From Microgenomates group bacterium Gr01-1014_16 (GTDB taxonomy: Bacteria; Patescibacteriota; Microgenomatia; CAZETR01; Amesbacteraceae), in assembly GCA_007376345.1 (NCBI GenBank), contig VMGA01000010.1:1-35093 (forward strand): a DNA stretch of 35,093 bases, in the 5' to 3' direction. Below the pieces are notes generated by a model. It did no database searches and had not been told where the DNA came from. It saw nothing but the letters and a program-made list of their open reading frames with translations. A program made the position numbers and the translations under genes. Of this stretch, positions 5,819 to 21,847 are shown one piece after another. How positions within the stretch are numbered: position 1 is the first letter of the stretch; every line of letters starts with the position of its first letter.

Positions 5819-5945
5819 TGAGCTGATTTTTAAAAAAGTTCGCACTGATTTTCGGGATTCACCGTAATGCTGCAGCTCGCTGCGCTCGCTTTTGGCTCCG
5901 GCTCGGCTGCGGCCTCGCCTCCGCCATTTTTTGCGCGCGCCGTGT
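5819..5945 (+). repeat. Left end of element 1 (inverted relative of the recombinase 3' end)
   Basis: Read on the minus strand this stretch resembles the 3' end of the recombinase genes: it has GCGCGCGCAAAAAA (complement at 5927-5940) and then a frame reading ISANFFKNQL, comparable to GSDYFLTDRQL in recombinase 1. Read on the plus strand it supplies the tail ELIFKKVRTDFRDSP that the recombinase would carry in the circular form. It is nearly identical to the reversed segment 12635-12743 of the internal cassette. It is therefore an attL half-site plus an imperfect terminal inverted repeat. Confidence 0.65.
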
Positions 5946-6421
5946 GCGACTGCCGTCGCACCAAGACCGAGAATTTTAAGTACGAACTGAATTTTCAAGT
6001 AACACAAGTATTTTACAACATTCCAGACAGCCCACCCACCCGAATACAAAGGGTGGCGGCGACCCCACTTCCGTTCGCAGGGCTCCCTAGGGGGACCCTT
6101 GCCCATGTTTCAGCTGTTCTAGCAACTCTTCGCAATCCCTTCCGAACTAAATGCAGTTCTACTAAGTCAGCTCACTCCAGCGGGGTATCCGCTTTTTCGC
6201 CCCCGCCTTCTTTATCCTTACCCCATCTCGGGTCCGGACGGCTTCGCGAGGACTCTCAACGGTTCGGGCCGGAGTTCTGATTCCTTAGAAAGACCCGGCC
6301 CTCACGTGGGTCGGGCCCGCTTCTTCGCAAGCCTTCAAAAATTCCAAGGGAGTTCCTGTCGCGGGCCCTCCTTTTTAGCTGGTGCTCTCCGATACTGGGG
6401 CGGGGGCGGCGGACGCCGCCA
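5946..6421 (-). other. Conserved structured noncoding block A
   Basis: No convincing reading frame. Three sub-blocks match block B of element 2: 6031-6070 (ending GGTGGCGGCGACCCCAC), 6181-6260 (GCCCCCGCC, then ACCCCATC, GGGTCCG and CGCGAGGAC) and 6367-6421 (ending GGGGCGGGGGC then GGCGGCGGACGCCGCC). GCCCCCGCC in the middle block is complementary to GGCGGGGGC in the last block, and GGGGTA (6183-6188) pairs with TACCCC; both pairings recur in block B. The orientation of any RNA is unknown; a minus-strand transcript would begin with the GGCGGCG hairpin. Confidence 0.55.
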
Positions 6422-6426
6422 CAAAA

Positions 6427-7614
6427 TTATTCTTCTGCTTCCGTTAGCTCCAAAGGCTTGATCTCTTGAAGTTCTCTCCCTGTTACTGCTTGTAGTTCAC
6501 CATACATTCCATGAGTATTGTCAATAATCTTGCGTAATTCTTTTTCCTGTCTCGACCATTTTAGATTAAACCAACGTTTTTCTTTCTCAATATCTCCTTG
6601 CAAATTATTAAATGCTTCAACTATGGCCTCTATTCTATGTGTAAATTCTACACTTCTTAAATATTGATACAAAACTTCCATTTTTTCGTTTTTGCCCACA
6701 TTAGCCAGTTTTTCAAAGTGGATATGAATTAAATCAAAGCGAAGGGCAATTGCTAGCCCTCTGGCGGACTTTATAGTTGTTATCCAAACATTTTCCCTGT
6801 AAACAAAGGTCTCAATATCCTCCGGTGGGTTGGCGACTACTAAAACCGCAAGTTGTGCTCCAGCCGCCCTTTGATCTTCTCTCAATTTCTTGAGCCATTC
6901 ATCTTTCCACTGCGCATTTTTAGACTCCCACAAGATCATTCCACACTCACGACCAAGTTTATCAACAACTGTTTGGGAAATATCTGCACCTCGTTCTCCT
7001 TTTTTAACTTCAGATACTTTGTCTTCAGGAAACTCTCTCCTTAGTATTTGTTCAAGTTCTAATTCCATGACCTCACCTTGGATTTGTTGAGATCCCTGTT
7101 CTAACTTGCGTTTTAGATCATCATTCATCTTTAATGCCTCTTGAAGCTTCTTGTCTTTTTCAGCATCTTTAAGTTGATGATTTTCTTGAGCCTCTTTGAG
7201 TGCATTGTCTCGGATCTTAACTCTTTCCTCGTCGAGCTGTCGTTGTTTTTCGATCTCAAATTTTTGTTTGGCCTCCTCCAGTTCTCGCTTCTCTTTTCTT
7301 ATTTTTAACTCTTGCTCTTCGGCTCGTTCCGCTCGTTGCTTGAGTTCAAGTATTTGCTCTTCTTTATCTTTGAGTTCCTTGGTGACACTTTCCTGAGCTT
7401 CGAGTTTTGCTTTCTCAGAAACCTGTTTTTTAGCTTCCTCAAATTCCTTTTTCTTTAACTCTTCAAATTCTTGCCTTTCGCGCTTGATTTGTTCAATTTC
7501 CCCTCGGTGTTTCAACTGCTCTTCCTTCAGTAATTTTTCTTCGAGTTCATGTTTGTAAGCATCGGTAGGCTCAAAAAGTTTCCCGCATTGTGGACATTTA
7601 ATTTGTGTGGTCAT
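6427..7614 (-). CDS. DUF2130 coiled-coil protein
   Basis: A 395-residue protein. The N-terminus has CPQCGKLFEPT, one half of a zinc-binding motif. A long charged coiled coil rich in Glu, Lys and Gln runs from about residue 20 to 185, followed by a globular C-terminal domain with ILRREFPEDKVSEVKKGERG and WESKNAQWKDEWLKKLRED. This layout matches DUF2130, whose C-terminal domain recalls restriction-endonuclease-like folds (the E-x-K in WESKNA fits, by inference). It lies 4 nt after the OLD nuclease gene and is probably translated from the same transcript. DUF2130 proteins are widespread and of unknown function; the setting here suggests a DNA-related or defence role. Confidence 0.8.
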   Translation of the reverse strand: MTTQIKCPQCGKLFEPTDAYKHELEEKLLKEEQLKHRGEIEQIKRERQEFEELKKKEFEEAKKQVSEKAKLEAQESVTKELKDKEEQILELKQRAERAEEQELKIRKEKRELEEAKQKFEIEKQRQLDEERVKIRDNALKEAQENHQLKDAEKDKKLQEALKMNDDLKRKLEQGSQQIQGEVMELELEQILRREFPEDKVSEVKKGERGADISQTVVDKLGRECGMILWESKNAQWKDEWLKKLREDQRAAGAQLAVLVVANPPEDIETFVYRENVWITTIKSARGLAIALRFDLIHIHFEKLANVGKNEKMEVLYQYLRSVEFTHRIEAIVEAFNNLQGDIEKEKRWFNLKWSRQEKELRKIIDNTHGMYGELQAVTGRELQEIKPLELTEAEE

Positions 7615-7618
7615 AAAT

Positions 7619-9226
7619 TCATGTTAAAGGAAACGCTTTGCTATTGCATGTTTGAATAGCGTCAAAAATTATTTTCATTTCATTTTCAAATTCCAATTGA
7701 GTCACTTTGCTTGCAACATCCTTTGCATAGGAAACCTTTCTATCATTAGGAATGTCATTCTTACTCTTCCGGTAAGCAGGCGGATAATATTCCTCAAGCG
7801 ATTCTGTTGTTAGTTCAAAAACTTGGTTTTTCTGAAAAAGATATGGGTATCCCTGTTTAAAAAGATCATATTTTATTTTTTGATTTTTATTGGGTTTATC
7901 AATAAGTACAACCGCTGTCTTCTTATAGATTGGATTATCAGAACCTGCCAACGGCGAAAACAATTTATGAACAGCAAGTAGAGTAGGCTCTTGTTCATCG
8001 ATATCCCCTCCTGCATAAATAATTTTTAAACCTCTGTGCGTCTCAGCATAGAACCGTTTAATTACACTGTTTATAAATTCAAATTCGCTCCTTCCCTCGA
8101 CTATCAAAAAATTTCGAGGTAATAATAAATCAGAAGGACTTCCTCCTAATAAATCGAATATCACATCTACTTTATCGACATCACCAACCTCGTTTATGTC
8201 TGTAATTCTGTTATTTTTTTCAACCTTAAATATTTTTTGATTCTCATTATTATCGACAACTAGTACAGAAGAATGTGTATTCACCAACACTTGATCTGTC
8301 TTACTAATATCAACAAGCGCCCGTTTCAATGCACGTTGGGCCGAGGGATGAAGATGTAACTCTGCCTCATCTATTAAAAACAGAAATGAACCGCCACCGA
8401 GCTGTTCCTTTCTGTAGTCCGCAAAGGCCTGGATAATTGAAAGCATAATCGCTCTTTGCATTCCATCACCTTTATCCTCAGCTTTTGTTTCAATCCCATC
8501 GTATACGGTTGTATCGAAGCTTTTAAGTAATTCATTAAAATGAGGAGGATTAACTCCAAATTTCACTCTTGTTCCATCAGGAAACTGTTTTTGAAGATAT
8601 ATTTCAACTTTAGCACCTAGTTTATTAAGTTCTTTTCTTACTTCGGAATCTTCGTTATCGAACAATTTAGCAAATTGTTTTTTGAAATCAATATAATCTT
8701 GGGAATTCTCAATAATTGCAGACAGCACGCCGGAAAGCATGACACCTATCGGGTTTTTGTCTTTGTATTTAGACACATCGTCTAGCCTTATTTTTGTATT
8801 AATATATTCGAGTTTTGGCAAAAACTCATTAATGGCCGTATCTAAACCCTGCGGGTTACCCTTATTTTCTCCATCAACGATATAAACTCTCTTATGATCA
8901 GAACTAGTCTTTTTGACAGAAAATGACCCCGAGTTACCCAGTAGATTTTTCAGTTTGGTTTTATTTGCATCAGTTTTTAACTTATTAATATCCGATTCTT
9001 CAATCCCATCAAAGAAAATTTCGACACTGACTTGATTACTCGGATCCCTATTATAATGCTCATCGTCACTTGATGAATTTGCATTAAAAAACCACTCTAT
9101 GGCTTCAAACAAGTTAGTCTTTCCATGATTATTTTGACCTACAAAAATATTAAAAGCCTTAATTTCAAGATTTTCAATTTTTCGGATGGAGCGGTAATTA
9201 TTAATGGAGACTTTTGTAATTTTCAT
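7619..9226 (-). CDS. OLD-family ATP-dependent nuclease (AAA ATPase plus TOPRIM)
   Basis: A 535-residue protein. The ABC-type ATPase part has Walker A GQNNHGKT (residues 30-37), an ABC signature-like KGDGMQRAI (252-260) and Walker B FLFLIDEAELHLHP (281-294). The TOPRIM nuclease part starts with FLIVEGRSEFEF (373-384) and includes VVLIDKPNK (about 439-447). This is the domain order of overcoming-lysogenisation-defect (OLD) nucleases, several of which act in phage defence; the Gabija protein GajA is one member. No UvrD-like GajB partner is adjacent. Its neighbours are a GIY-YIG protein upstream and DUF2130 downstream on the same strand, so a three-gene module is plausible. The substrate is unknown. 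Confidence 0.85.
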   Translation of the reverse strand: MKITKVSINNYRSIRKIENLEIKAFNIFVGQNNHGKTNLFEAIEWFFNANSSSDDEHYNRDPSNQVSVEIFFDGIEESDINKLKTDANKTKLKNLLGNSGSFSVKKTSSDHKRVYIVDGENKGNPQGLDTAINEFLPKLEYINTKIRLDDVSKYKDKNPIGVMLSGVLSAIIENSQDYIDFKKQFAKLFDNEDSEVRKELNKLGAKVEIYLQKQFPDGTRVKFGVNPPHFNELLKSFDTTVYDGIETKAEDKGDGMQRAIMLSIIQAFADYRKEQLGGGSFLFLIDEAELHLHPSAQRALKRALVDISKTDQVLVNTHSSVLVVDNNENQKIFKVEKNNRITDINEVGDVDKVDVIFDLLGGSPSDLLLPRNFLIVEGRSEFEFINSVIKRFYAETHRGLKIIYAGGDIDEQEPTLLAVHKLFSPLAGSDNPIYKKTAVVLIDKPNKNQKIKYDLFKQGYPYLFQKNQVFELTTESLEEYYPPAYRKSKNDIPNDRKVSYAKDVASKVTQLEFENEMKIIFDAIQTCNSKAFPLT

Positions 9227-9252
9227 ATATGTTCGACAAAATAACCTTGAAA

Positions 9253-9552
9253 TTATTTATCTCCGCACATCGGATTAAGTTGTAACCGTAAATAAGATTC
9301 AATATGCAGTCTTATTTGTTGATTAGCCTCTCGATAAATTGCGACGTAAATGGTCTGGCTATTGGCATTTCTTTGCCAGCAAGACCGTCTTTCGTGCCCA
9401 GAAATCCGTGTGCCTAATTGATCGGTTTCTCCAACATCCAACCATCGCTCGTTAGTGTAGATGGCGTAAACCCCGGCCACATCATTAAACGCTGTCGATA
9501 GCGGATAACCGGTTTCAAGTTGATACCCGGCAATATTTGTTGTCATAATCAC
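9253..9552 (-). CDS. Small GIY-YIG nuclease-like protein
   Basis: A 99-residue protein consisting almost entirely of a GIY-YIG-like domain: GVYAIYTNERWLDVGETDQL carries the GIY and YIG positions (GVY, and DVG in place of YVG), followed by the conserved Arg in LGTRISGHERR and a late acidic residue in HIESYLRLQLNP that would be the metal ligand. It is the first gene of the minus-strand set with the OLD nuclease and DUF2130 genes and is divergent from the LexA-like repressor, with 65 bp between the starts. It may be a DNA nuclease used with the OLD protein; that is inference. The start could also be the ATG three codons in (MTTNIAG). Confidence 0.6.
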   Translation of the reverse strand: MIMTTNIAGYQLETGYPLSTAFNDVAGVYAIYTNERWLDVGETDQLGTRISGHERRSCWQRNANSQTIYVAIYREANQQIRLHIESYLRLQLNPMCGDK

Positions 9553-9568
9553 TTACTCCTTCTCCCTC

Positions 9569-9598
9569 TTGACAAAGTTAGTAAAAAGGTAGTAAATG
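9569..9598 (+). promoter_or_regulatory. Candidate sigma70 promoter for the LexA-like gene
   Basis: TTGACA at 9569-9574 and TAAATG at 9593-9598, 18 nt apart, lie in the 65-bp divergent gap. The spacer has a partial direct repeat (TTAGTAAA and GTAGTAAA), and an alternative -10 TATACT lies at 9599-9604. These could be operator half-sites for the LexA-like repressor, which would then control both directions. Confidence 0.45.
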
Positions 9599-9617
9599 TA
9601 TACTAGTACTCCTATTT

Positions 9618-10220
9618 ATGAATGTCAACATGGAAAAGCCAATAACCCCAAAGCAAAAGATAGTTTTCGAATTTATCAAATCTTTCTCCAAAAAAAACGG
9701 GTTTGCTCCATCACTTCAGGAAATTGCCGATTATCTCAATAAATCTTTAAGTACGGCACAGCATTTCGTGGCGGAGTTACATAAGAAAGGCTATCTACAA
9801 AAGAGCGAAAACGTCGCTAGGAGTATTAGCACGCTGGGGGATACCTTCAAACAAATTTTTAAGCTCGGGTATATTGCCGCCGGTAATCCGATAGAGCCGA
9901 TCGAAAACCCAGAGCCGATCGACGTGCCCACATCGTTTCTGGAAAAGCCGGGTAACTATTACGCTCTTGAAGTTAAAGGCAACAGTATGATTGAAGACAA
10001 CATATTAGACGGTGACACCGTGGTAATTAGGCACACACAGATAGCAGAAGACGGCGATAGAATAGTTGCAATAACGGAAGACGGTGCGACCCTTAAAGTT
10101 TTTAGAAATAAAAACGGCAAAACGTACTTAGAGCCTAGAAACAATAATTTGAGTGCTATTTATCCAAAGCAATTGGAAATCCGAGGAAAATATTGTGGTT
10201 TAATACGAAAAGGAGAATAA
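9618..10220 (+). CDS. LexA-like self-cleaving repressor (S24 peptidase)
   Basis: A 200-residue protein with the LexA layout. The winged-helix DNA-binding domain occupies about residues 8-75 (TPKQKIVFEFIKSF, then PSLQEIADYLNKSLSTAQ). The scissile Ala-Gly is at 88-89 in GYIAAGNPI. The peptidase domain has Ser123 in VKGNSM and Lys160 in ATLKVF. All residues needed for RecA-stimulated self-cleavage are present. It heads the Vsr-methyltransferase gene set and is divergent from the OLD nuclease set. It may be the element's own damage-responsive regulator and not the host SOS regulator, because it is carried inside the mobile element. The ATG at 9630 is an alternative start. Confidence 0.88.
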   Translation: MNVNMEKPITPKQKIVFEFIKSFSKKNGFAPSLQEIADYLNKSLSTAQHFVAELHKKGYLQKSENVARSISTLGDTFKQIFKLGYIAAGNPIEPIENPEPIDVPTSFLEKPGNYYALEVKGNSMIEDNILDGDTVVIRHTQIAEDGDRIVAITEDGATLKVFRNKNGKTYLEPRNNNLSAIYPKQLEIRGKYCGLIRKGE

Positions 10221-10243
10221 AATGATTATACCTGCCGACTTTT

Positions 10244-10648
10244 ATGGGAGATATATTCACAAAGGAAAAAAGAAGCGAAATAATGTCTCGGATTACCGGG
10301 AAAAATACGACACCGGAACTTACAGTAAGAAAAATTCTCCGAAAAATGGGGTACAAGTACCGCTTAAACGCCCACAACTTGCCGGGAAAACCGGATGTGG
10401 TTATTCATTCGGAGAAACTTGTTATTTTTGTCAACGGCTGCTTTTGGCATAACCATAAGGGGTGTAAAAGAAGCTCGTTACCGAAAACTAATACTGAATT
10501 TTGGAAAGACAAGATTAATAAAAATGTTGAAAAACAAAAACAAAGCATTAAAGCACTTAAAAAATTAGGTTGGAAGATTTTAGTGCTTTGGCAGTGTAAA
10601 ATTAACAACAATAATGCATTATTGAAAACTTTGTCTCAAAACCTATGA
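10244..10648 (+). CDS. vsr: Very-short-patch repair endonuclease
   Basis: A 134-residue Vsr endonuclease. MGDIFTKEKRSEIMSRITGK matches the family N-terminus, followed by NTTPELTVRKILRKMG, the catalytic region LPGKPDVV with the metal-binding Asp, and IFVNGCFWHNHKGCK with zinc-binding Cys and His. Vsr nicks beside T:G mismatches that arise when 5-methylcytosine deaminates, so it protects sites modified by the adjacent methyltransferase. The stop overlaps the methyltransferase start by ATGA (10645-10648), so the two are translationally coupled. An AGGAG ahead of an ATG at 10222 leads into an unrelated frame; the start at 10244 is chosen from family length. Confidence 0.93.
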   Translation: MGDIFTKEKRSEIMSRITGKNTTPELTVRKILRKMGYKYRLNAHNLPGKPDVVIHSEKLVIFVNGCFWHNHKGCKRSSLPKTNTEFWKDKINKNVEKQKQSIKALKKLGWKILVLWQCKINNNNALLKTLSQNL

Positions 10649-11775
10649 AAAAAAATAAAAAAACACACTCCAATAAACCCGTCTTGATAGATTTGTTTGC
10701 CGGGGCTGGTGGGTTATCTATCGGATTTGAACAAGCCGGATTCAAATTAGTCGCAGCCACAGATTGGGATCATTGGTCTTGCGAAACATTGAGAGCCAAT
10801 CATAGAAATGTTTTTGTGGCCGAAGGGGATATAAACGAAGTAGACCTGAATGACTTTGCCGGTAAACTTTCTGCCGATGAAGTCGACCTAATAGTAGGCG
10901 GACCGCCTTGTCAAGGGTTTAGCGCGTTGGGGAAGAGATTGAAAAGTGACCCTCGGAATCAGCTTTGGCAACAGTATATGAGATTCGTTGAGTATTTCAA
11001 CCCGAAAGTTTTCTTAATGGAAAACGTTCCCGAACTTCTAAAGAGTGAGGAATATGTTCAAATTAAAAGAGCCGCGGAAAAACTTGGGTACCAAGTAAGG
11101 GAAAAGATATTATTTGCGCCTGATTACGGTGTGCCCCAAAAAAGAAGAAGGGCCATAATTTTGGGGAGCAGAATAGGTGAACCTAAATTTCCGAAACCCA
11201 CCCACTTGTTACCCGGCCAATTAACCTTGGATAACTACAGGTGTGTCCCGTGGAAAAGTGTCAGAGATGTTATAGGGGATCTCCCGTTAGAGCCGGACGG
11301 AAACAACTGGCATGTTGGAAGAAACCCTACTGAAAAATCTCTTAAAAGGTATAAGTCTGTCCCTCCCGGAGGAAATCGTTTTAATCTGCCGCAAGATCTT
11401 ATGCCTGATTGTTGGAAAAGGAAAAAAACCGGCTCAACAGACGTTTTCGGCAGGTTAGAGTGGGACAAGCCGTCGCTAACGATCCGAACGGAATTTTTCA
11501 AACCAGAAAAAGGAAGATATCTTCACCCGGAAGCTCACAGGCCGATAACTATCAGGGAAGCAGCCAGACTGCAAACTATTCCAGATAGCTACGTATTGAA
11601 GGGATCACATCTGGAGGTGGCTAAACAAATAGGAAATGCCGTACCGTGCGAATTGGCTAGAAACATTGGAGAGGAATTGCTAAAACTCTTTAGCACCGAT
11701 TCGGATAGCATCAAGGAGAAGAGAATTTACCGATCGACCGGTTTTGAGAGACTTCTCGCTTACCAACAACCTTAA
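10645..11775 (+). CDS. DNA (cytosine-5) methyltransferase
   Basis: A 376-residue C5-methyltransferase with all main motifs: I DLFAGAGGLSIGF (residues 16-28, SAM binding), IV GGPPCQGFS with catalytic Cys89, VI MENVPE (125-130), VIII QKRRR, the target recognition region at about 190-300, IX REAARLQTIPD and X GNAVP. It transfers a methyl group to cytosine in a specific DNA sequence that cannot be read from the protein. It is coupled to Vsr upstream and convergent with an HNH endonuclease gene that overlaps its last 96 bp. With the HNH and XRE genes it forms a type II restriction-modification set. Confidence 0.95.
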   Translation: MKKNKKTHSNKPVLIDLFAGAGGLSIGFEQAGFKLVAATDWDHWSCETLRANHRNVFVAEGDINEVDLNDFAGKLSADEVDLIVGGPPCQGFSALGKRLKSDPRNQLWQQYMRFVEYFNPKVFLMENVPELLKSEEYVQIKRAAEKLGYQVREKILFAPDYGVPQKRRRAIILGSRIGEPKFPKPTHLLPGQLTLDNYRCVPWKSVRDVIGDLPLEPDGNNWHVGRNPTEKSLKRYKSVPPGGNRFNLPQDLMPDCWKRKKTGSTDVFGRLEWDKPSLTIRTEFFKPEKGRYLHPEAHRPITIREAARLQTIPDSYVLKGSHLEVAKQIGNAVPCELARNIGEELLKLFSTDSDSIKEKRIYRSTGFERLLAYQQP

Positions 11776-12279
11776 ATCGTCTGGAAGGTTTACTGAAACA
11801 ATTTTGTTTTTAATCGTTTCCGGATAAGCGGCAAGAGATTTTTTTCCAGCATTACATCTGCTACACAAAGTCCACAAATTTTCTTCCACAGTTTTTCCTT
11901 GTTGCCTTAATGGAGTTATATGATCAACCTCCAGATTCACTACATGCCCGTCATCATATTTTTCTCCTCCCTTGTGGCCGCATAGTTGGCACACATAGCG
12001 GTCACGCTCCAAGACTTTCAGCCTTAACTTCAGGTTAATATATCCGTCTGTCTGAACACCTTTCTTATTAACAGACTTCAAGGTATATCCGCTAGGGCTA
12101 CTGCTATAACGTATATCCCAACCCTCCGCTCTTAATTCTCTTATCCTGCGTGCGTAATTATGTTGCCCCGACACTTCAATCAGCTTCTCGTTCGGAACAA
12201 GCTTCCTCATATTTTCATACAACACGTCGAGTAATTTTTGCCAAACTCCGTTTTTATCGCTTTTGGGAACTCTTTTCAT
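11680..12279 (-). CDS. HNH endonuclease, likely the restriction enzyme of the type II system
   Basis: A 199-residue protein. The central HNH domain shows YVCQLCG (Cys97, Cys100), LEVDHITPLRQQG (Asp119, His120), EENLWTLCSRCN (Asn134, Cys139, Cys142), that is a beta-beta-alpha-metal nuclease with a structural zinc site. The N-terminal part, with SGQHNYARRIRELRAEGWDI, is a winged-helix-like segment seen in HNH restriction endonucleases. It starts 1 nt after the XRE controller gene and is convergent with the methyltransferase, overlapping its 3' end by 96 bp. This is the common C-R arrangement of controlled type II systems. The C-terminal ~40 residues (VSVNLPDDLRLLVSEKSLK) resemble a small ribbon-helix-helix-like tail. 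Confidence 0.8.
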   Translation of the reverse strand: MKRVPKSDKNGVWQKLLDVLYENMRKLVPNEKLIEVSGQHNYARRIRELRAEGWDIRYSSSPSGYTLKSVNKKGVQTDGYINLKLRLKVLERDRYVCQLCGHKGGEKYDDGHVVNLEVDHITPLRQQGKTVEENLWTLCSRCNAGKKSLAAYPETIKNKIVSVNLPDDLRLLVSEKSLKTGRSVNSLLLDAIRIGAKEF

Positions 12280-12280
12280 A

Positions 12281-12493
12281 TCATATTCCCTTAAAGAGTT
12301 CCGATAACTCCAGTCCTAAAACTTTTGCAATCTTCTCAATATTTTCCAGCGAAACGTTACGTGTCCCTCGTTCCAAATCGCTTACATAAGTCCTATGCAG
12401 ACCGGATCTGAAAGCCAACTCCTCCTGGGATAGCCCCTTAGCTTTTCTCAATTGTCTCAGCCTCTTACCATATTTTCTTTTTATGTCGATCAT
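12281..12493 (-). CDS. XRE-family controller (C) protein
   Basis: A 70-residue protein that is essentially one helix-turn-helix domain: KRLRQLRKAKGLSQEELAFR, then SGLHRTYVSDLERGTRNVS and KIAKVLGLELSELF. Size and sequence match the C proteins of type II restriction-modification systems, which bind C-boxes to activate and later restrain their own gene and the restriction gene. A C-box-like sequence lies 44-63 bp upstream of its start, and the HNH endonuclease gene follows after 1 nt, both as expected. The transcript may have a very short leader. Confidence 0.88.
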   Translation of the reverse strand: MIDIKRKYGKRLRQLRKAKGLSQEELAFRSGLHRTYVSDLERGTRNVSLENIEKIAKVLGLELSELFKGI

Positions 12494-12536
12494 AAGTTAC
12501 TGTTACTTATTGACTACATTTTACTTTTTGTATATT

Positions 12537-12556
12537 CTTAGTCTACAGACTATAAG
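12537..12556 (-). promoter_or_regulatory. C-box operator for the controller protein
   Basis: On the minus strand the site reads CTTATAGTCTGTAGACTAAG, with the paired half-sites AGTC-TGTA-GACT and an outer ACTTATAGT. This closely resembles the C-boxes of known controller proteins (ACTxATAGTC-x4-GACT). A -10-like TAAAAT lies 16 nt downstream of TAGACT, in a position to be activated by bound C protein. Confidence 0.75.
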
Positions 12557-12588
12557 TGACGTATTGTATCAAAATATATCATTTATTG

Positions 12589-12863
12589 AAAATTTTTGCG
12601 TTTTCTTTTTGAGAGAACGAGTCCGAGCCGATGTTTCGCGGAGGCGAGGCGACAGCCGAGCCGGAGCCAAAAGCGAGCGCAGCGAGCTGCAGCATTACGG
12701 TGAATCCCGAAAATCAGTGCGAACTTTTTTAAAAATCAGCTCAGAAAGTGAGTGGTCGGTGGCCCGCAGGGCCACAGTCTGCGCGGTGGGGGTCACGCAG
12801 AGCCTAGCAAAGCCCTTTTTGTAGTTCACCCTGAGTTGTACAAAAAGAAAACGCAAAAATTTT
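12589..12863. repeat. Cassette 1: 23-bp inverted repeat enclosing an inverted attP copy of element 1
   Basis: Perfect inverted repeats at 12589-12611 and 12841-12863 (core TTTTTGCGTTTTCTTTTTG on the left) flank 229 bp and end 18 bp before the recombinase ATG. From right to left on the minus strand the interior reads: the recombinase 3' end from CAACTCAGGG through ATDHSLS (12744-12838), the junction at 12742-12743, the left end of element 1 (12635-12742), and a fragment GAAACATCGGCTCGGACT that again matches the recombinase gene (about 12617-12635). The frame across the junction encodes an alternative recombinase tail, ELIFKKVRTDFRDSP. Confidence 0.8.
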
Positions 12864-12881
12864 AAGTAAAACTAACTGCCT

Positions 12882-14818: not shown

Positions 14819-14892
14819 TTTGTATTCAAAACCTCCGTTCCAGGCAGATCTTTTGGCTGAATATATATCTCTTCACTCCATTTTGCAATGGG

Positions 14893-14964
14893 CGGGGTCT
14901 GTACGAAAAAGTTCGAACCTGCTTTACCTCGTAATGTCGCAGCTCCCTTTTTTACGCGCGCGCT
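14893..14964 (+). repeat. Left end of element 2
   Basis: Begins at the CGGG core. On the minus strand it carries GCGCGCGCGTAAAAAA (complement at 14948-14963), which matches recombinase 2 at 21635-21648, followed by a frame reading GKAGSNFFVQTP, similar to GKNIGSNYFLHQRQ of recombinase 2. It is repeated without mismatches that I can see, in reverse, at about 20111-20172 inside cassette 2. Confidence 0.65.
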
Positions 14965-15397
14965 TGTCCCGCTTCGGCGGGACAGAACCCACGAACCAAT
15001 TAACGAAAACCATTATACTGCATTCCGACTCAACCCACCCGCCCCCGGATATGGAAGGCGGCGACCCCACGCCTCCCGCCGCAGTCGCCCTCGGTCAGCG
15101 TCTGCGGGCGGTGGCGGATCCCCGTTCGACTTGCTCACGGCTGCCACTTCTTTACAACCTTTCACAGCTTTCACAGGTCAAAGTACATTTCCACCTCATA
15201 GGTAAAAGCGATGGTCGGCGTGGGGTGATTCCGCTTTCGCCCCCGCCTTTTATATCGTACCCCATCCTCGGGTCCGCACGGCTCCGCGAGGACACTCCAC
15301 GGCTCACTGCGGCTCGCTGGGGTCGTCCCGCCTAATTCGGCGGGACTCCTTTTAGCAGCTAATCCCCGAATCTGGGGCGGGGGCGGCGGACGCCGCC
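14965..15397 (-). other. Conserved structured noncoding block B
   Basis: No credible reading frame. It starts with a strong hairpin TGTCCCGC-TTCG-GCGGGACA (14965-14984). Three sub-blocks match block A: 15031-15070 (AAGGCGGCGACCCCAC), 15221-15300 (GGGGTGATTCCGC, GCCCCCGCC, ACCCCATCCTCGGGTCCG, CGCGAGGAC) and 15345-15397 (GGGGCGGGGGC, GGCGGCGGACGCCGCC). Complementary pairs GCCCCCGCC/GGCGGGGGC and TGGGGT/ACCCCA are kept in both copies while intervening sequence differs. A further hairpin GTCCCGCC/GGCGGGAC lies near 15325-15345 and has no exact partner in block A. Confidence 0.55.
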
Positions 15398-15466
15398 AAT
15401 TTATAAATCGGATTCAAACTAATACCTTCTGTGAGCCCCTGTGGTGCCGTTTACCGGCCATTTTCC

Positions 15467-15494: not shown

Positions 15495-15548
15495 TTATTT
15501 AACAACAAAGTATCTCAAAAGATACATAGACAAATTAGGGATTGATCC

Positions 15549-15578
15549 GCCCCGGTTTGCAGAAAGACTGGGGTTTTT
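15549..15578 (+). terminator. Possible intrinsic terminator or attenuator in the leader
   Basis: CCCCGGTTT and AAGACTGGGG form a stem, followed by a run of five T, about 20 nt before the start at 15595. Because it lies between the promoter and the gene, it could act as an attenuator in the leader. Confidence 0.4.
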
Positions 15579-15594
15579 ATTAACTATTTGAATT

Positions 15595-15837
15595 ATGTCA
15601 ACTTTAGGCAATAGACTTATCAAATTATTTACGAATCTAAAATGGACAACTCCCAGAGTGGGTTTGGCAAATCATGGGAGAAAGTGGTGTCCGCCACCAG
15701 GTGTAACTACAAGCTATCCGGGGCAACAACCATTTATCTTGATGCCACGAAAAGTCAACGAGAATGTTATTAAATACATCATCCAAGAGCTAAAGAGGTT
15801 CGGGTATGCCAAGAAAGATCTAGAGGACGAACTCTAA
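15595..15837 (+). CDS. HicA-like small protein
   Basis: An 80-residue basic protein. The C-terminal half, FILMPRKVNENVIKYIIQEL followed by KRFGYAKKDLEDEL, aligns in pattern with the end of HicA mRNA interferases (TVPxHxxELxxGTLRxILKQAGLSxxEF). NHGRKW upstream may correspond to the catalytic-His strand. The resemblance is weak in the first 45 residues, so function is not certain. It overlaps the end of a HicB-like gene by 4 bp but in convergent orientation, unlike classical hicAB operons. It is preceded by a promoter and a possible attenuator. Confidence 0.45.
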   Translation: MSTLGNRLIKLFTNLKWTTPRVGLANHGRKWCPPPGVTTSYPGQQPFILMPRKVNENVIKYIIQELKRFGYAKKDLEDEL

Positions 15838-16199
15838 GCGGTTACAAGTCTTGCTCGAAAAACTGGCTCAGGTGGATATACCACTGTTCCATCGTCTAAT
15901 TTCAAAGTAAGCGTATCAGGAAGCTTCCTCGCGCGGTATCTGGGAACGTCAAAATAGGTAAGAATAGAGTCAAAAATAGCCTCTCTAAGTTCTGATTCGT
16001 TTTCTCCACTTGCTATTAGACCAGGGTAATCTACCGATTCTACCCAAATTAAACCCCGATCTCGGTGAGTCTTAAATTGAAGATCCAGTTTAAATGGGGG
16101 TAAGGAAGGGGGTCGATTTCGCAAGATATCAAACAAAACGAAATCCTTCAAATCTAACAATAAATCTATCAATTTATATTTTACTATACTCATATTCAT
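15834..16199 (-). CDS. HicB-like antitoxin-fold protein
   Basis: A 121-residue protein. GLIWVESVDYPGLIASGENE followed by SELREAIFDSILTYF is the HicB partial RNase H-like core (the pattern W(V/A)xxxxYPGLxxxGxxxxEAxxNxxEAI). The N-terminal ~50 residues are an extra basic segment. No clear DNA-binding domain is seen at the C-terminus, which ends PPEPVFRARLVTA. In HicAB systems HicB neutralises HicA. Here the two genes converge with a 4-bp overlap, so pairing is inferred from proximity only. Confidence 0.6.
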   Translation of the reverse strand: MNMSIVKYKLIDLLLDLKDFVLFDILRNRPPSLPPFKLDLQFKTHRDRGLIWVESVDYPGLIASGENESELREAIFDSILTYFDVPRYRARKLPDTLTLKLDDGTVVYPPEPVFRARLVTA

Positions 16200-16246
16200 A
16201 TTAATTCACATTATAATACTACGTCACTAGTATCGGGCCAGGAAGT

Positions 16247-16363
16247 TTGGTTGTCAATCGTCTTCTGTGTGCAGTCAGACAACTGATCGAAAAAGAGCCA
16301 TTGTACTGGGATTATATACCTGATGAGTATTTTAGTCCAGATTACCAAAAAAATAAACCCTAA
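16247..16363 (+). pseudogene. Possible small ORF or gene remnant
   Basis: A 38-codon frame with a TTG start: LVVNRLLCAVRQLIEKEPLY followed by WDYIPDEYFSPDYQK. The composition looks protein-like, and the frame stays open about 16 codons further upstream without a better start. I do not recognise it. It fills much of the 220-bp gap between the HicB-like gene and the rRNA methyltransferase gene and may be a fragment of a lost gene. Confidence 0.3.
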
Positions 16364-16420
16364 CACCTGGAATCTCAAAGAATAACGGTGAAAGAGTATC
16401 GCGAAGTGTAAAATTAAGCC

Positions 16421-17293
16421 ATGGCAGCAACTTTGTGGCATTCGCAAAACTTCATTGGTAATCCCAGTCTCGTCTCCAAACTACTTGGAATGACGGATAT
16501 AAACTCGTCTGATTTCGTGATTGAAATTGGTCCCGGAAAGGGCGCAATAACTGGACAGTTGGTCAGATCGGCTGGTTCAGTGTTGGCAATTGAAGCTGAC
16601 TTGAATCTCGCGAACAAACTTAACATCCAGAATGTCAAGGTAATTCAAGGAGATTTCTTAAAACATGCTCTCCCAGATCAAGTATACAAAGTCGTCGCAA
16701 ATATCCCCTTCAACTTAACCGCCGAAATAATTAGGAAGTTGTTTTTGAGCGATGAGAACAAGCCTGAGGCTGCTTTTCTAATCATGCAGAATGAAGCAGC
16801 CCAAAAGTTTGCCGGAGTACCCAAAGCTACCCTTTCTTCTATTTTGATTCAAGTTGAGTACGACACCAGGATACTGACTAAAATCGACAAAGGAGAATTT
16901 GTTCCCACTTCCAAAGTCGACGCCGCCTTTATTTCGTTTATAAAAAGGGGTCAACCATTGGTTAACCGGACATATTCTCGAGAATTCGCAGACTTTGTTG
17001 CCTACGGCTATAAATATTTTCGATGGAATGAGCCGTTGATAAGCGTCTTTGATAGATTATTTACCAATTCCCAGAAAGAAAATCTGGAGAAAAAATTTCA
17101 ATTAACCGGCCAAAAAGTTTCCGACTTAGAAGTGTTTAAATGGATCGGACTATTTAATGATCTGGTGGATCAAGTGGCAACAGAAAAGTGGGATATATTC
17201 CGTGGAACAATGGAAAAATTAACTGAAGAACAATCACGGCTACAAAAACGACACAAAACTCAAACAAATCTTGGGAAAACTAATAAATCGTAG
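16421..17293 (+). CDS. rRNA adenine N6-dimethyltransferase, Erm/KsgA family
   Basis: A 290-residue SAM-dependent methyltransferase. HSQNFIGNPSLVSKLL leads into motif I EIGPGKGAIT (residues 35-44), the acidic motif II IEAD (57-60), GDFL (77-80) and catalytic motif IV NIPFNLT (94-100). NIPF, not NLPY, is closer to Erm proteins (23S rRNA) than to host RsmA/KsgA (16S rRNA). The ~70-residue C-terminal domain is rich in Lys and Gln. It is carried inside mobile element 2, which also favours an accessory Erm-like gene over the housekeeping enzyme. The target and any effect on macrolide susceptibility are inferred from family only. Alternative: a diverged KsgA. Confidence 0.8.
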   Translation: MAATLWHSQNFIGNPSLVSKLLGMTDINSSDFVIEIGPGKGAITGQLVRSAGSVLAIEADLNLANKLNIQNVKVIQGDFLKHALPDQVYKVVANIPFNLTAEIIRKLFLSDENKPEAAFLIMQNEAAQKFAGVPKATLSSILIQVEYDTRILTKIDKGEFVPTSKVDAAFISFIKRGQPLVNRTYSREFADFVAYGYKYFRWNEPLISVFDRLFTNSQKENLEKKFQLTGQKVSDLEVFKWIGLFNDLVDQVATEKWDIFRGTMEKLTEEQSRLQKRHKTQTNLGKTNKS

Positions 17294-17316
17294 TAAACTT
17301 TTTATATCTACACTGG

Positions 17317-18003
17317 ATGAAAACCCGCCTACCAAAATCAAAAGGGGATTGGAAAACTGCAGTCGCTGTTGGTGCTACAGCGTTAATAGCCTCAGGTGGA
17401 TTATGGTGGATTGGTGATAGGAATAAAATTCCTGTTCCGGCCTACAAAATGCTCCGGGTCATAGACGGCGACACCTTTGAAACTACCGAACGTCAATTAA
17501 TCCGACTCTCCGGCGTCAACGCTCCGGAATTGGCAAATTGTTATGGCCAAGAGGCTAAAAGCACATTACAAAAATTAATTACTAACAAAAATCTTTATCT
17601 CAAAGTTATTTACCGCGACGGCAGCAATCGCCTGATCAGCCACGTTTATACCGATAAAGGGTTAGTTGCAACTCAGCTCGCTCGGGAAGGCACTGTATAC
17701 GACTTCGGTAGGGGTCTAGATGACCCTGAATTTGACCAAGCTGTAGATTATGCAAAGTCACACAAAATCGGAATTTTCAGCCCCAAATGCACACAGACAA
17801 TCAATACTGCCAATCCCAAGTGTGCCATCAAAGGCAATGTTCGCACTCCAGACTCCAAGCTATATCGTTTTCCGGGATGTGGAAATTACACAACCACGTT
17901 AGTTCAATTGTCATTAGACGATCGCTGGTTTTGTACCGAAAAAGAAGCTCAATCAGCCGGTTTTTCCAAAGGTTCAGACTGTTTTAACCAGAGTTGGAAA
18001 TAA
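17317..18003 (+). CDS. Thermonuclease-like (SNase) protein with Cys-rich C-terminal domain
   Basis: A 228-residue protein with an N-terminal hydrophobic segment (about residues 14-32) that may export or anchor it. The staphylococcal nuclease domain shows VIDGDTFE (Asp50, Asp52), IRLSGVNAPE (Arg63, Glu71) and an Arg in DGSNRLISHVY. These are the metal-binding and catalytic positions, so it is probably an active Ca-dependent nuclease outside the cytoplasm. After residue ~160 a second region, KLYRFPGCGNYTTTLV then DRWFCTEKEAQSAGF, is a small Cys-containing domain often found after SNase in bacteria. It starts 24 nt after the Erm-like gene, so the two may share a transcript. Confidence 0.82.
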   Translation: MKTRLPKSKGDWKTAVAVGATALIASGGLWWIGDRNKIPVPAYKMLRVIDGDTFETTERQLIRLSGVNAPELANCYGQEAKSTLQKLITNKNLYLKVIYRDGSNRLISHVYTDKGLVATQLAREGTVYDFGRGLDDPEFDQAVDYAKSHKIGIFSPKCTQTINTANPKCAIKGNVRTPDSKLYRFPGCGNYTTTLVQLSLDDRWFCTEKEAQSAGFSKGSDCFNQSWK

Positions 18004-18009
18004 GTAGAA

Positions 18010-18211
18010 TTATCTGACAGGAAAATTAATGTGATAATGCGCAAAAACCAAATAGGTGTCGTATCTGATTTCTTCTTCAATTACTTGATCCATAACCACC
18101 AGAAAGTCCAGTGCCTAAAATTTTCTTAATTTCTAATTTCATTCTAAGGTCTATTTTACTCTTTAACCACCATATAAATCGAGGAACCATCCAATTTATG
18201 CTCTGTCTCAT
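18010..18211 (-). pseudogene. Possible frameshifted small gene downstream of the deacetylase gene
   Basis: Two overlapping short frames on the minus strand look protein-like: an ATG at 18211 gives MRQSINWMVPRFIWWLKSKI and on to a stop at 18077, and in another frame VMDQVIEEEIRYDTYLVFAH ends at 18010. Together they could be the remnant of one small gene that followed the ChbG-like gene. I do not recognise a family. Apart from this the 246-bp gap holds nothing I can identify. Confidence 0.25.
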
Positions 18212-18249
18212 TTCTATCGCAACTCACGCTTAGCAAGGAATACAAAGTA

Positions 18250-19011
18250 TCAAATCTCACAGGAAGGAACCAATTGTAAGTTTTCTTCCTCTACCAGGCT
18301 TAGGAAATAGTCCGAAAGTAAAAAGTTAACGTCGTCTAGTCGCTCTTGGATAAATGAAGTTAAACCCTTTTCAAAATCAGTTGAATACCCCGGATGAAAA
18401 AATATCTCAATTGATTTTATTTGTCCTAATTGTTTGAGAAAAGCTAAATCCTGTTTATAAGCGGTGTATATGTCCTTGGGAAAACCATATCTAAAACCAA
18501 GAATTGCGTCGGCGGTTCTGCCAATGTTTAAGCCTTTTGGAGTCTCATCGGCTTTAAGAGTGAAATGGCCAAGAGTGTTAGAGCGCTCACCCCTGCGAGC
18601 ATAACAGATATTCCTGACACAATAATCGGCAATATACCTGACAATTTTTGAATTTAATGAGATTTGTTTGTGCCCAATGATGTGTTTAGGGGTAAAACCG
18701 ATTAGTTGTTCAAATAGACGAACCTCTTCCTCAAAAGCAGCGATTAATTGCTCGGGAGTCCAGTTCAGTAAGATATCATCGTAATCTTTTCCTCTCAAAA
18801 CCTTGCCATCCTTGGAAATTCGACAAAGTGAGAAATGTAGTCCCACGTTTTGCACGCTGTTGTTTTTGATGTAATTAACAGCGTTCATGGAACCATAACA
18901 ATCAACCATGAGGGAAAGTTCAGTTATCCGACCTTTTTCATAAGCCTCAATTATGGCTCTGTTAGTGTTTTCAGTAAATCCGAAGTCGTCTGCCGTTGTT
19001 AGTGTCTTCAT
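18250..19011 (-). CDS. ChbG/YdjC-like carbohydrate deacetylase
   Basis: A 253-residue TIM-barrel-like deacetylase. Metal-binding motifs are visible: TADDFGFTENTNRAI (Asp8, Asp9), NVGLHFSL (His), IIGHKQISLN (His) and IEIFFHPGYS (His). Family members remove N-acetyl groups from chito-oligosaccharides or related sugars in the cytoplasm, and many lie near lipid or surface-glycan genes. The start overlaps the stop of the EamA transporter gene by ATGA (19008-19011), so the pair is translationally coupled; the transporter may move the deacetylase substrate or product. The substrate is not predictable from sequence. Confidence 0.85.
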   Translation of the reverse strand: MKTLTTADDFGFTENTNRAIIEAYEKGRITELSLMVDCYGSMNAVNYIKNNSVQNVGLHFSLCRISKDGKVLRGKDYDDILLNWTPEQLIAAFEEEVRLFEQLIGFTPKHIIGHKQISLNSKIVRYIADYCVRNICYARRGERSNTLGHFTLKADETPKGLNIGRTADAILGFRYGFPKDIYTAYKQDLAFLKQLGQIKSIEIFFHPGYSTDFEKGLTSFIQERLDDVNFLLSDYFLSLVEEENLQLVPSCEI

Positions 19012-19928
19012 GTGTTGTTTTTGGCCTCCACCTTATTCATGAGAATTACTGAAGCTACAATCAACAAACCACCTAAAATTTCTTTTAATGCCGGAGTCTC
19101 TGAAAAAACAATTAGTCCAATCAAAACCGCAAAGGCCGACTCTAGAGTCAAAATATTACTTGCGTGTACAGCTTCTACTTTTTGGAATCCATACTGGGAA
19201 AGAAAATTGTTTAGGACATTGAAGAAGCCTGATGCCAAGACAGCAATAATAATACCCAAACTCCAGCCACTTGACGGTAATGACTCTCCTGCCAAAATTG
19301 AAGCTAAAAATAATATTATTGAACCGATTAATAAAATTAGCGACGTAATTTCTTTGTTTGTCAGTAAGTTGGAGTGCCATTTTCGAGTAACATAAGCAAA
19401 AGAAAAGAAAACCGCGGATATGAGAGCGTAAAAGTCTCCTTTTACCCACGACAATAAGTTTGAATAGTCCTGAGCCGAAATCAGCATTACCCCACCAAAA
19501 GCCAGAATAATTAACAGAACCTTTTTAATTGTCAGTTTTTCCTTGAATAGTAAAAAGCCGAAAAATGCCGTTAGAGGAAGAGAACCGATAAATGAAACAT
19601 TGCTGTATTTGGTAAGTAGTAATGCCCTAGTGAACAGGTTGACACCAAGTATGTAAAACGAGATAGACCTAAGAGTTAACAAAGACCATTCTTTTAGAGT
19701 TATTCTTCTAAGTTTTGACAAATCTAGTGACTTGTTAAAAAAAATTAAACTCATCAGAAATGCAGCAAACATTCGAAGATAAATTTGTTGAAATATAGCA
19801 AAAGACGTGTTGAGGTATCTCACAAAAATACCCATAATTGCATAAATGAAAGCCAGCCACACCAGAACAATTACCCCTTTGTTATGGTCAGACAAAACTT
19901 TTAAGCGATTAATGATCTTGTTACTCAT
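19008..19928 (-). CDS. EamA/DMT-family transporter
   Basis: A 306-residue integral membrane protein with ten hydrophobic segments in two repeats of five, the EamA (drug/metabolite transporter) layout. Typical features are GVIVLVWLAFIYAIMGIFVR in helix 1, the end of repeat one GFLLFKEKLTIKKVLLIILA and the matching LIVFSETPALKEILGGLLIV near the C-terminus. The substrate is unknown. It is the first gene of a two-gene minus-strand operon with the ChbG-like deacetylase. Its upstream region (19929-20012) borders the recombinase 2 cassette. Confidence 0.88.
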   Translation of the reverse strand: MSNKIINRLKVLSDHNKGVIVLVWLAFIYAIMGIFVRYLNTSFAIFQQIYLRMFAAFLMSLIFFNKSLDLSKLRRITLKEWSLLTLRSISFYILGVNLFTRALLLTKYSNVSFIGSLPLTAFFGFLLFKEKLTIKKVLLIILAFGGVMLISAQDYSNLLSWVKGDFYALISAVFFSFAYVTRKWHSNLLTNKEITSLILLIGSIILFLASILAGESLPSSGWSLGIIIAVLASGFFNVLNNFLSQYGFQKVEAVHASNILTLESAFAVLIGLIVFSETPALKEILGGLLIVASVILMNKVEAKNNT

Positions 19929-20012
19929 TGGATCATTTTATGCTTTCGATTATCAAATTGGAATAACTATTGACTTCGGGTTAGATTAGGTAATAATTAA
20001 ATAAGTACCTTA

Positions 20013-20308
20013 AAAATTTTTGCGTTTTCTTTTTGCCCTAATGGGGTTCGGCCGATGTTTAGCGGAGGCGCGGGCGCAGCCGCGCCGGCCTGGCCTGCCG
20101 AAGCTGAAAGCGAAGGAGGGAGCTGCGACATTACGAGGTAAAGCAGGTTCGAACTTTTTCGTACAGACCCCGCATTTCGAGATATGCAACAGCCGGGTTC
20201 AGCCCGCCCGACTGGCGGGCGTAGGAAAATACGGCATCAAAGCCTTTTTTATAATCCAGCGAATTTTGCCGGATTGGAGAAAGTACAAAAAGAAAACGTA
20301 AAAATTTT
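20013..20308. repeat. Cassette 2: inverted repeat enclosing an inverted attP copy of element 2
   Basis: Inverted repeats at 20013-20035 and 20286-20308 match those of cassette 1 (22 of 23 positions within this pair; GCG on the left against GTA in place of GCA on the right). They enclose 250 bp and end 12 bp before the recombinase ATG. Read on the minus strand the interior has the recombinase 3' end (LDYKKGFDAVFSYARQSGG, then LNPAVAYLEMR, 20174-20275) joined at CCCG (20169-20172) to the left end of element 2, giving the tail GLYEKVRTCFTS. The recombinase part differs at several positions from 21700-21808, so the copy is not recent. Confidence 0.8.
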
Positions 20309-20320
20309 AAGAGACTGACC

Positions 20321-21847
20321 ATGAAATACATCGCCTATTGCCGCAAATCCACCGACGAGAACAGCCGCCAGGTGTTATCCATCGAATCCCAAATCGCCGA
20401 ATTAACAGAGTTTGCTCAAAGAGAAAGTTTAGAGGTGGTGGAGTTTGTCACTGAAGCCAAAACGGCCAAGGAACCCGGTCGGGAGAAATTCAAAGCGATG
20501 TTGGCAACTATCGCGTCCGGCAAGGCTAACGCAATTTTAGCTTGGCACCCCGACAGGCTAGCCAGAAATTCCATAGACGGTGGAAATATTGTTTACTTGC
20601 TGGATATAGGTAAACTGCTCGACCTGAAATTTCCCTCTTTTTGGTTTGACAATACTTCCCAAGGCAAATTTATATTGGCAATCGCCTTCGGCCAATCCAA
20701 ATACTACGTCGATAACTTAAGCGAGAATGTCAAAAGGGGATTGCGCCAAAAATTGCGTCTGGGCATCTGGCCCAGCCATGCTCCATTAGGCTACAAAAAT
20801 GATCTAGTCACACACGAGATCCTTGTCGACGATCAAAAATCAAAATTAGTGAACAAGGTATTTACCCTGTTTCTCAATGAAAAGTCATTCGTGAAAATAT
20901 CCAAGTTTTTGTTAGAACATGGAGTTACAGGGAAAAACGGCAAACCTCTGCACCTCACCCGGATTCGGCGCATGCTCACCAATCCCTTCTACATTGGCAA
21001 GTTCTTCTACAAATGCGAGTGGCATCAAGCCAGCCACAAACTATTCCTCTCAAAGCAACTATTCGACCAAGTCCAAGAGGGGGTAAAGGCAATATCTAGA
21101 CAAACATATCACTCGCACCGGTTTGCTTTTTTGGGTTTAGCCAAATGCCGCGAATGTGGTGCCACCATCACGGCTGAACGGCATATCAAACACTACAAGC
21201 ACGGCGGCTCCCAGAAGTTTGTTTACTACCGCTGTACCAAAAAATCCGGTCCATGCACCCAGCCATATCTCCCCGAACTCGAATTTGAACACCAGGTGCG
21301 CCGCATTATCTCCGACGTCGCCTTACCGGAGAATTGGGGTCAACAATGGCTGAACTGGCTGGACCAAGACGAACAGCTGGAAAAATTAAAATCCGCCGAC
21401 CAAATCAATAAACTCACACTCCAAATCAATGACATTGACGCCAAACTCGAATCTTTGCTGGACGGTTTCCTCGACCAAGTCGTCGACAGTCCGAGTTACA
21501 AAACCAAGAAAAACCAGCTATTTGAACAGAAAGGCAAACTGGAGAGGGAAATTGGTCAACTCCAAAGAGATGGTTCGAGTTGGCTCGAACCAATGCGAGA
21601 GATAATAAAGACGGCGGTGGATGGGGACAAAAGCGCGCGCGTAAAAAATAATTCCGATGAACTGTTATCCATCGGAAAAAACATCGGCTCGAACTACTTT
21701 CTCCACCAACGGCAAATTTCGCTGGATTATAAAAAGGGCTTTGATGCTGTATTTTCTTACGCCCGCCAGTCGGGCGGGCTGAACCCGGCTGCTGCATATC
21801 TCGAAATGCGGGCCCGACCGGATTCGAACCGGCGGTCTCTTCCTTGA
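20321..21847 (+). CDS. Large serine recombinase 2
   Basis: A 508-residue paralogue of recombinase 1 with the same layout: MKYIAYCRKSTDENSRQ with nucleophile Ser10, HPDRLARNSIDGG, recombinase domain, zinc ribbon KCRECGAT and YYRCTKKSGPCTQ, a coiled coil, and the tail SNYFLHQRQISLDYKKGFDA. The last residues (ARPDSNRRSLP) are antisense to tRNA-Asp, because the right end of the element lies at the 3' end of that tRNA. In the circular form the tail would be GLYEKVRTCFTS. It should catalyse integration at the tRNA-Asp site. The leader carries cassette 2. Confidence 0.9.
   Translation: MKYIAYCRKSTDENSRQVLSIESQIAELTEFAQRESLEVVEFVTEAKTAKEPGREKFKAMLATIASGKANAILAWHPDRLARNSIDGGNIVYLLDIGKLLDLKFPSFWFDNTSQGKFILAIAFGQSKYYVDNLSENVKRGLRQKLRLGIWPSHAPLGYKNDLVTHEILVDDQKSKLVNKVFTLFLNEKSFVKISKFLLEHGVTGKNGKPLHLTRIRRMLTNPFYIGKFFYKCEWHQASHKLFLSKQLFDQVQEGVKAISRQTYHSHRFAFLGLAKCRECGATITAERHIKHYKHGGSQKFVYYRCTKKSGPCTQPYLPELEFEHQVRRIISDVALPENWGQQWLNWLDQDEQLEKLKSADQINKLTLQINDIDAKLESLLDGFLDQVVDSPSYKTKKNQLFEQKGKLEREIGQLQRDGSSWLEPMREIIKTAVDGDKSARVKNNSDELLSIGKNIGSNYFLHQRQISLDYKKGFDAVFSYARQSGGLNPAAAYLEMRARPDSNRRSLP
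21633..21812 (+). repeat. Right end of element 2, inside the recombinase gene, with internal hairpin
   Basis: GCGCGCGCGTAAAAAA (21633-21648) matches the inverse of 14948-14963. A hairpin TTCCGATG (21652-21659) / CATCGGAA (21670-21677) sits at the same place as the hairpin of recombinase 1 but with a different stem sequence. A GC-rich palindrome GCCCGCC (21761-21767) / GGCGGGC (21773-21779) encodes ARQSGG. The end is the CGGG core at 21809-21812. Confidence 0.6.

Follow-up and report, generated by a model that had tools for sequence, protein, structure and literature searches.

Tandem tRNA-targeting elements of CPR bacteria hold, ahead of a large serine recombinase gene, an inverted duplicate of the junction formed by their own two ends

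What holds together two mobile elements that lie side by side, share one frame and carry entirely different genes? The question is raised by a 35,093-nucleotide stretch of DNA from the Microgenomates group bacterium Gr01-1014_16 (contig VMGA01000010.1; the whole stretch is called the window here), a member of the candidate phyla radiation (CPR). An original prediction had placed in it a tandem pair of elements that belong to one family and are built alike, with edges given by internal junction copies and about 520 bp of host DNA between them. All of this held up: element 1 (E1) spans 5819-14372 and element 2 (E2) 14892/14893-21812, the host DNA that separates them (14373-14891) measures 519 bp and consists mostly of a LysM gene truncated by E1, and the same arrangement recurs in dozens of CPR loci, with edges that abut tRNA genes and have shared cores. 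Two points had been overlooked, namely that the defining part of the frame is a self-copied cassette and that the target is the 3′ end of tRNA genes. Specifically, in both elements a large serine recombinase (LSR) is preceded by an inverted copy of the element's own circle junction. We refer to the right-end arm as p, to the left-end arm as b, to their junction in the circle (p–b) as attP, and to the copies in the cassette as p′ and b′. These are almost certainly tRNA-targeting integrative elements of CPR bacteria with one gene in common, the LSR.

The correspondence between cassette and ends is direct in both elements. The reverse complement of the E1 cassette reproduces the right end followed by the left end (14277-14372 joined to 5819-5924, 98–100% identity), and that of the E2 cassette does the same (21695/21710-21812 joined to 14892-14948, 92–100% identity). 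In E1, p′ (12743-12838, minus strand) is a 100% match to the recombinase 3′ end that forms the p arm (14277-14372, plus strand), b′ (12638-12743, minus strand) is a 98% inverted match to the b arm (5819-5924, plus strand), and a further motif, X′ (12620-12637, minus strand), is an inverted copy of recombinase positions 14242-14259. In E2, p′ (20169-20285, minus strand) and b′ (20117-20173, minus strand) are inverted copies of the p arm (21695-21812, plus strand) and the b arm (14892-14948, plus strand), the latter being about 65 nt shorter than its cassette copy; both edges share the 5-nt core GCGGG (14892-14896 and 21808-21812). The inverted repeats anticipated around the cassette are present and measure 23–30 bp (E1, 12582-12611 and 12841-12870; E2, 20013-20035 and 20286-20308; all given on the plus strand), the right-hand repeat of E1 lying 11 nt ahead of the recombinase start codon. 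Chance is excluded as the origin of these copies, because inverted copies of about 100 bp at 98–100% identity recur in dozens of independent loci. All data are metagenome-assembled genome (MAG) assemblies, and the edge cores come from a simple search for shared strings, so that a few are uncertain.

The recombinase is the gene that integration alters. The LSR open reading frames (ORFs) run from 12882 to 14558 in E1 and from 20321 to 21847 in E2, both on the plus strand, and each is cut by the right edge of its element, such that the in-element parts are 12882-14372 and 20321-21812 and the remainder lies in host DNA, in E2 through a tRNA-Asp gene in antisense. Both proteins score above the Pfam cut-offs for Resolvase, Recombinase and zinc ribbon (PF00239, PF07508 and PF13408). 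The right edge was expected at the 3′ end of the LSR gene; it does lie in the 3′ part of the ORF, but the ORF runs past it, and in E2 the edge is the 3′ end of the tRNA. Likewise, the left end had been read as an inverted recombinase-like sequence, which holds for the GCGCGCG(C/T)AAAAAA motif (minus strand at 5926-5941 in E1, inverted relative to 14198-14213; minus strand at 14948-14965 in E2, inverted relative to 21631-21648) but not for the b arm: in the circle, the LSR frame reads on through b, which in E1 supplies the recombinase C-terminus ELIFKKVRTDFRDSP. Across p–b, most elements close the frame with a conserved motif, (L/V)(Y/F)EKIRTxF; after integration, read-through of flanking DNA stands in place of this C-terminus, and no recombinase with an intact C-terminus occurs among the family loci examined on this point. 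Integration thus splits the frame and leaves an altered resident copy, which would be expected to lose activity. The best named relatives in NCBIfam are XisF and the CcrA/B/C recombinases of the staphylococcal cassette chromosome (SCC), the latter at 51–120 bits against cut-offs of 700–900. By a count made by eye, about 80 of the 380 genomes sampled from the phylum have strong relatives (E <= 1e-130). Recombinase genes split or truncated near residue 152-156 were also seen (G115:C6:15893-17328, G112:C13:50624-51604 and G112:C13:148751-149734), and the G115 gene has its catalytic and DNA-binding parts on separate ORFs with a 4-nt overlap.

The edges point to the target. Where a family locus extends at least 100 nt past the right edge (88 loci), a tRNA lies no more than 150 nt from that edge in 76 cases; its 3′ end nearly always coincides with the edge itself, and many kinds of tRNA are represented. 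The core repeats common to both edges are mostly 4–7 nt long and equal the tRNA 3′ end, and at the position of the tRNA T-loop most b arms have TTCGAAC or a sequence close to it. For E2, the right edge is the 3′ end of tRNA-Asp(GTC) (21808-21881, minus strand). A related genome, G010, has an element-free locus in the order PolX, tRNA-Asp, LysM, tRNA-Gly(CCC), tRNA-Thr, as a comparison of syntenic loci should reveal if the predicted edges were right; set against it, E2 is located at tRNA-Asp, and E1 is flanked by LysM and tRNA-Thr, at the place that tRNA-Gly(CCC) has in G010. The edges thus share their core with the junction sequence, and an empty syntenic locus exists, as is expected of a site-specific integrative element. 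On the strength of these sequence comparisons, integration by attP x attB recombination at tRNA ends is well supported.

E1 itself is not a clean insertion, as its right flank lacks tRNA-Gly(CCC) and the 3′ end of LysM. What remains of the LysM gene (14373-14818, minus strand, the host part of ORF 14291-14818) has lost its 3′ end at the E1 edge, so that its frame ends short of the usual end, while a homologue reads on as ..ITDPQKLEIGTVLTVVCK and has tRNA-Gly(CCC) after it, a tRNA that was not found in the source assembly (95% complete). The closest relative of the E1 recombinase, at locus L047 in genome G005, adjoins LysM at tRNA-Gly(CCC). Given the gene order in G010, the missing tRNA, the short LysM and the position of L047, it is most likely that E1 entered at tRNA-Gly and that a later deletion from the right core took the tRNA and the LysM end.

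How general is the cassette? A search of CPR genomes, which the original prediction had proposed, returned both the recombinase and the noncoding block described below in further loci. A full copy of p lies upstream of the LSR in 59 of 74 related loci of GTDB genomes, in a run that included two viral contigs; of the remainder, several are cut by contig ends, and in some the copy is degraded or limited to b. When members were picked by recombinase identity, 40 of 42 had the full p copy, and these two rates are the usable ones, the larger count of 90/95 being biased as most of its GTDB loci were picked for having the copy. Wherever the left end could be reached (50 elements), p′ and b′ are contiguous, and the cassette is always inverted with p′ towards the recombinase. 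The arms are symmetric in length (medians 105 and 102 nt), and whole elements range from 2.3 to 11.6 kb, the smallest being 2.3–2.8 kb. Their hosts are Microgenomates, Paceibacteria, Saccharibacteria and Peregrinibacteria. The cassette is absent from all 22 of the more distant CPR LSRs that we compared (27–37% identity), many of which likewise lie near tRNA genes, and the cassette-bearing LSRs form one side of a branch with 99% support; since the rows of the tree were picked for having the cassette, this support speaks to clustering and is not a rate. A recurrent hairpin of about 70 nt (AATGCCC..TTGGACAGATCCT..GTCTGAGCACAACCAGTG..GGGCATT; L049, L050, L066 and L076) was noted in passing in several mini-elements and upstream of another recombinase.

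This distribution bears on the simplest account of the inverted copy, that it is a functionless by-product of an ancient duplication or of assembly. MAG assemblies can collapse repeats, and L064 has at a contig end (positions 1-1162) a suspicious 448-bp perfect inverted repeat around its cassette, which is either an assembly artefact or a real inverted duplication. However, the same arrangement appears in dozens of independent assemblies, single-contig genomes included, its bearers cluster on one well-supported branch, and it has been kept while the sequence turned over completely. We therefore disfavour a by-product and regard it as extremely improbable.

The turnover is informative in its own right. 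Within an element the copies are nearly identical (median identity 98.4% for p/p′ and 99% for b/b′), with mismatches that show no clear gradient from the core, whereas between elements the arms are about 60% alike, near the random value of 56%. Of 341 differences between close relatives, 304 are present in both copies. Because copies match within elements and changes are shared by both, the two must be kept alike by repeated copying, although some resident elements have drifted to 77–79% identity (L047, L054 and L058). Each arm contains a palindrome, that of p lying near -50; stems of at least 7 occur in 54–58% of cases compared with about 6% of shuffles, and the stem sequences change freely. 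The flanking repeats similarly keep their pairing while their sequence changes, with some conserved sequence common across elements in a cross-element control.

Pairing that outlasts sequence invites the idea that the cassette is transcribed as part of the recombinase 5′ UTR, giving a structured or antisense RNA that pairs with the 3′ end of the mRNA or guides recombination in the manner of bridge RNAs. Its position ahead of the recombinase, its hairpin-forming flanks and its complementarity to both the 3′ end and the donor junction are all consistent with this. But roughly 2060 pairs in the stems include only about 5 G.T against 8 A.C, and p/p′ mismatches have no strand bias (60 versus 57). 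The near absence of G.T pairs and of bias argues against selection on RNA pairing, which would have left both marks, and indicates that pairing acts at the level of DNA; in addition, nearly perfect complementarity over about 200 nt is far beyond what a guide would need, and b lies outside the recombinase mRNA in the integrated form. RNA function was dropped as the leading idea on the grounds of stems and mismatches, and we now consider it distinctly improbable.

A DNA-level role might instead be that of a second working attP, with either site able to integrate or with the inverted copies flipping the recombinase gene and so restoring its full C-terminus. The cassette does hold an intact p–b with the same core, and p and p′ do form inverted repeats of about 100 bp around the recombinase. 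Against this, the 50 delimited elements include none that is opened at the cassette and none in which the recombinase or cargo is flipped, and the missing intact C-termini mentioned above also count against it. A second attP is quite improbable in our estimation. An invertible switch was rejected on the same lack of inversion isomers.

More serious is the possibility that the cassette is a double-stranded attP to which the recombinase binds in controlling its own gene, as operator or decoy, with gene conversion holding the copies identical. It accounts for orientation and identity without any new process, the inverted orientation surviving because copies in direct orientation would lead to loss of the recombinase or the cargo. 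Wherever the cassette is in its expected place, it lies upstream of the recombinase start and within a few hundred nucleotides of it, and in the more distant sister LSRs the corresponding place is taken by a small ORF, a possible regulator. Against this, a serine integrase binding site needs about 50 bp, and here about 100 nt per arm are kept and homogenized with no clear gradient; palindromes whose stems change freely suggest folding rather than sequence-specific binding; and the residents at 77–79% identity imply that gene conversion is not constantly active in resident elements. Control of this kind is unlikely, though still well worth considering.

The small ORF deserves comment because it bears on how the elements might leave a chromosome. 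It is about 52–65 aa long and stands beside 17 of the 22 sister LSRs (L205-L224, L076 and L077), mostly within 1 kb upstream in the listed examples, and it is absent from all 90 cassette elements; it is a candidate excision factor or accessory protein. No gene family occurs in more than 10 of 50 elements, and hence there is no second common gene apart from the LSR. A common excision factor (recombination directionality factor, RDF) was rejected, as no gene is shared by the 50 elements and the sister small ORF is missing.

The reading that we favour, tentatively, is that the cassette is a built-in single-strand splint that rejoins both ends of the element after natural transformation. At a tRNA 3′ end, the recombinase would recombine the circle's attP (p–b) with attB, as its protein family leads one to expect. 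Natural transformation would then carry a single strand with the integrated element into another cell, where both element ends, b on the left and p on the right, would anneal to the internal b′p′ and be brought edge to edge; the host flaps would be trimmed, the nick sealed and the second strand made. The product would be a circle with an intact attP and a full-length recombinase, able to integrate at a tRNA gene with no excision factor, and the copies would also stay identical through mismatch repair in the fold-back. We favour the splint because the copy is inverted, contiguous across the junction, nearly identical and symmetric, because the ends fold onto the cassette, and because no excision-factor gene is shared. 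The inverted orientation with p′ towards the recombinase is what single-strand annealing needs, and when one strand was folded with DNA parameters, the two ends paired edge to edge with the cassette in all 10 cases tested and likewise in a complete 2.9-kb element. ComEC and DprA are present in CPR bacteria, of which at least one is naturally transformable (PMC10633639); in competent bacteria, non-homologous single-stranded DNA is established only if it has internal homology, through annealing (PMC6050356, PMC3128108). Held more loosely still is the broader proposal that this represents a new mode of mobility, in which an integrated element encodes its own splint, any strand that is taken up re-forms an integration-competent circle without excision, conjugation or phage, and the splint is re-copied from the ends at each transfer.

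Several observations weigh against the splint. No copy is seen in at least five relatives for which some flanking sequence is available (L120, L136, L167, L169 and L190). The assemblies reveal no circular or transferring form, and a scan of viral contigs for the circle yielded four loci, none of which shows it; one of these, L199, ends at p and has its p′ a long way from the recombinase. A splint does not require a fixed place directly upstream of the recombinase, the flanking inverted repeats have no clear role in it and would compete with full annealing, and ordinary gene conversion between inverted repeats would also yield identical copies. Finally, the sister small ORF is an excision factor in candidacy only.

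Around this core, the elements carry varied genes. The idea that the frame is a vehicle for changing cargo is borne out by the two elements and by the family counts. The E1 cargo (6427-12493) comprises DUF2130, an OLD-like ATPase, a small ORF, an S24/LexA-like gene, Vsr, a C5 DNA methylase, an HNH endonuclease and a helix-turn-helix (HTH) control protein, of which the methylase, Vsr, endonuclease and control protein are type II restriction-modification genes. The E2 cargo (15595-19928) comprises two small ORFs, an Erm/KsgA-like rRNA methylase, an SNase, a YdjC deacetylase and an EamA transporter. The methylase (16421-17293) is closest to the Erm model and falls below its cut-off (190 versus 212 bits). 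Domain scans of E1 and E2 cargo gave no conjugation or relaxase genes. Outside the elements, at 1044-1733, lies an ORF resembling a repetitive extragenic palindrome (REP)-associated, Y1-type transposase, as judged from sequence alone.

Both elements also have a GC-rich noncoding block of about 450 nt that adjoins b (5979-6421 in E1, where it is a putative structured RNA, and 14981-15402 in E2). It had been predicted to be conserved, and the two copies are indeed alike; there are about 20 further homologues (L063, L061, L048, L134 and others), several of them at the left ends of other elements. On its minus strand the block has a GGGTGGGTGGG run. A CCTA-loop hairpin has changes on both sides, as in covariation, and no Rfam family matches at gathering scores, so the block is a candidate for a new RNA family of CPR elements. 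It appears to stand outside the minimal machine because it is not seen in the smallest elements that were read through.

It is informative to compare these elements with known systems. In common with islands and prophages that use LSRs (phrog_95 type, phiC31/Bxb1-like), they have the Resolvase, Recombinase and zinc-ribbon domains, attP x attB logic, a short core and an attP near the integrase gene. They differ in targeting the tRNA 3′ ends of many isoacceptors, in having attP inside the integrase frame, and in their inverted second attP copy with flanking repeats and no shared excision-factor gene. Elements with tyrosine integrases that target tRNA genes also insert at the 3′ end and leave a whole tRNA on one side; the CPR elements do so with a serine recombinase and keep the tRNA end by a short core rather than a long block of identity. 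In the archaeal SSV-type viruses, too, the att site lies within the integrase gene and integration alters it, although there the enzyme is a tyrosine recombinase, whereas the CPR elements exchange only the last codons and carry an internal junction copy. SCC and XisF provide the best named recombinase relatives, with scores far below cut-offs and no shared architecture seen. A bridge-RNA system of the IS110 type, with RNA-level structure that guides donor and target, seems improbable here: the cassette stems are poor in G.T pairs, which argues against RNA, and the recombinase is of the serine type. The nearest likeness to the splint is plasmid establishment by transformation, in which single-strand annealing of internal homology re-forms a circle (PMC6050356, PMC3128108); this needs a multimer or two strands, whereas the splint would need one strand. 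Our searches of the open-licence literature on CPR, serine recombinases and tRNA returned no description of the CPR elements.

Gene transfer in CPR bacteria is poorly understood, and the family gives precise ends, targets and a one-gene core to what is apparently a main class of mobile element among them. It is unusual for one clade of serine recombinases to use the ends of so many kinds of tRNA gene, and such enzymes could serve as a tool. If the splint is true, natural transformation would have its own dedicated mobile elements.

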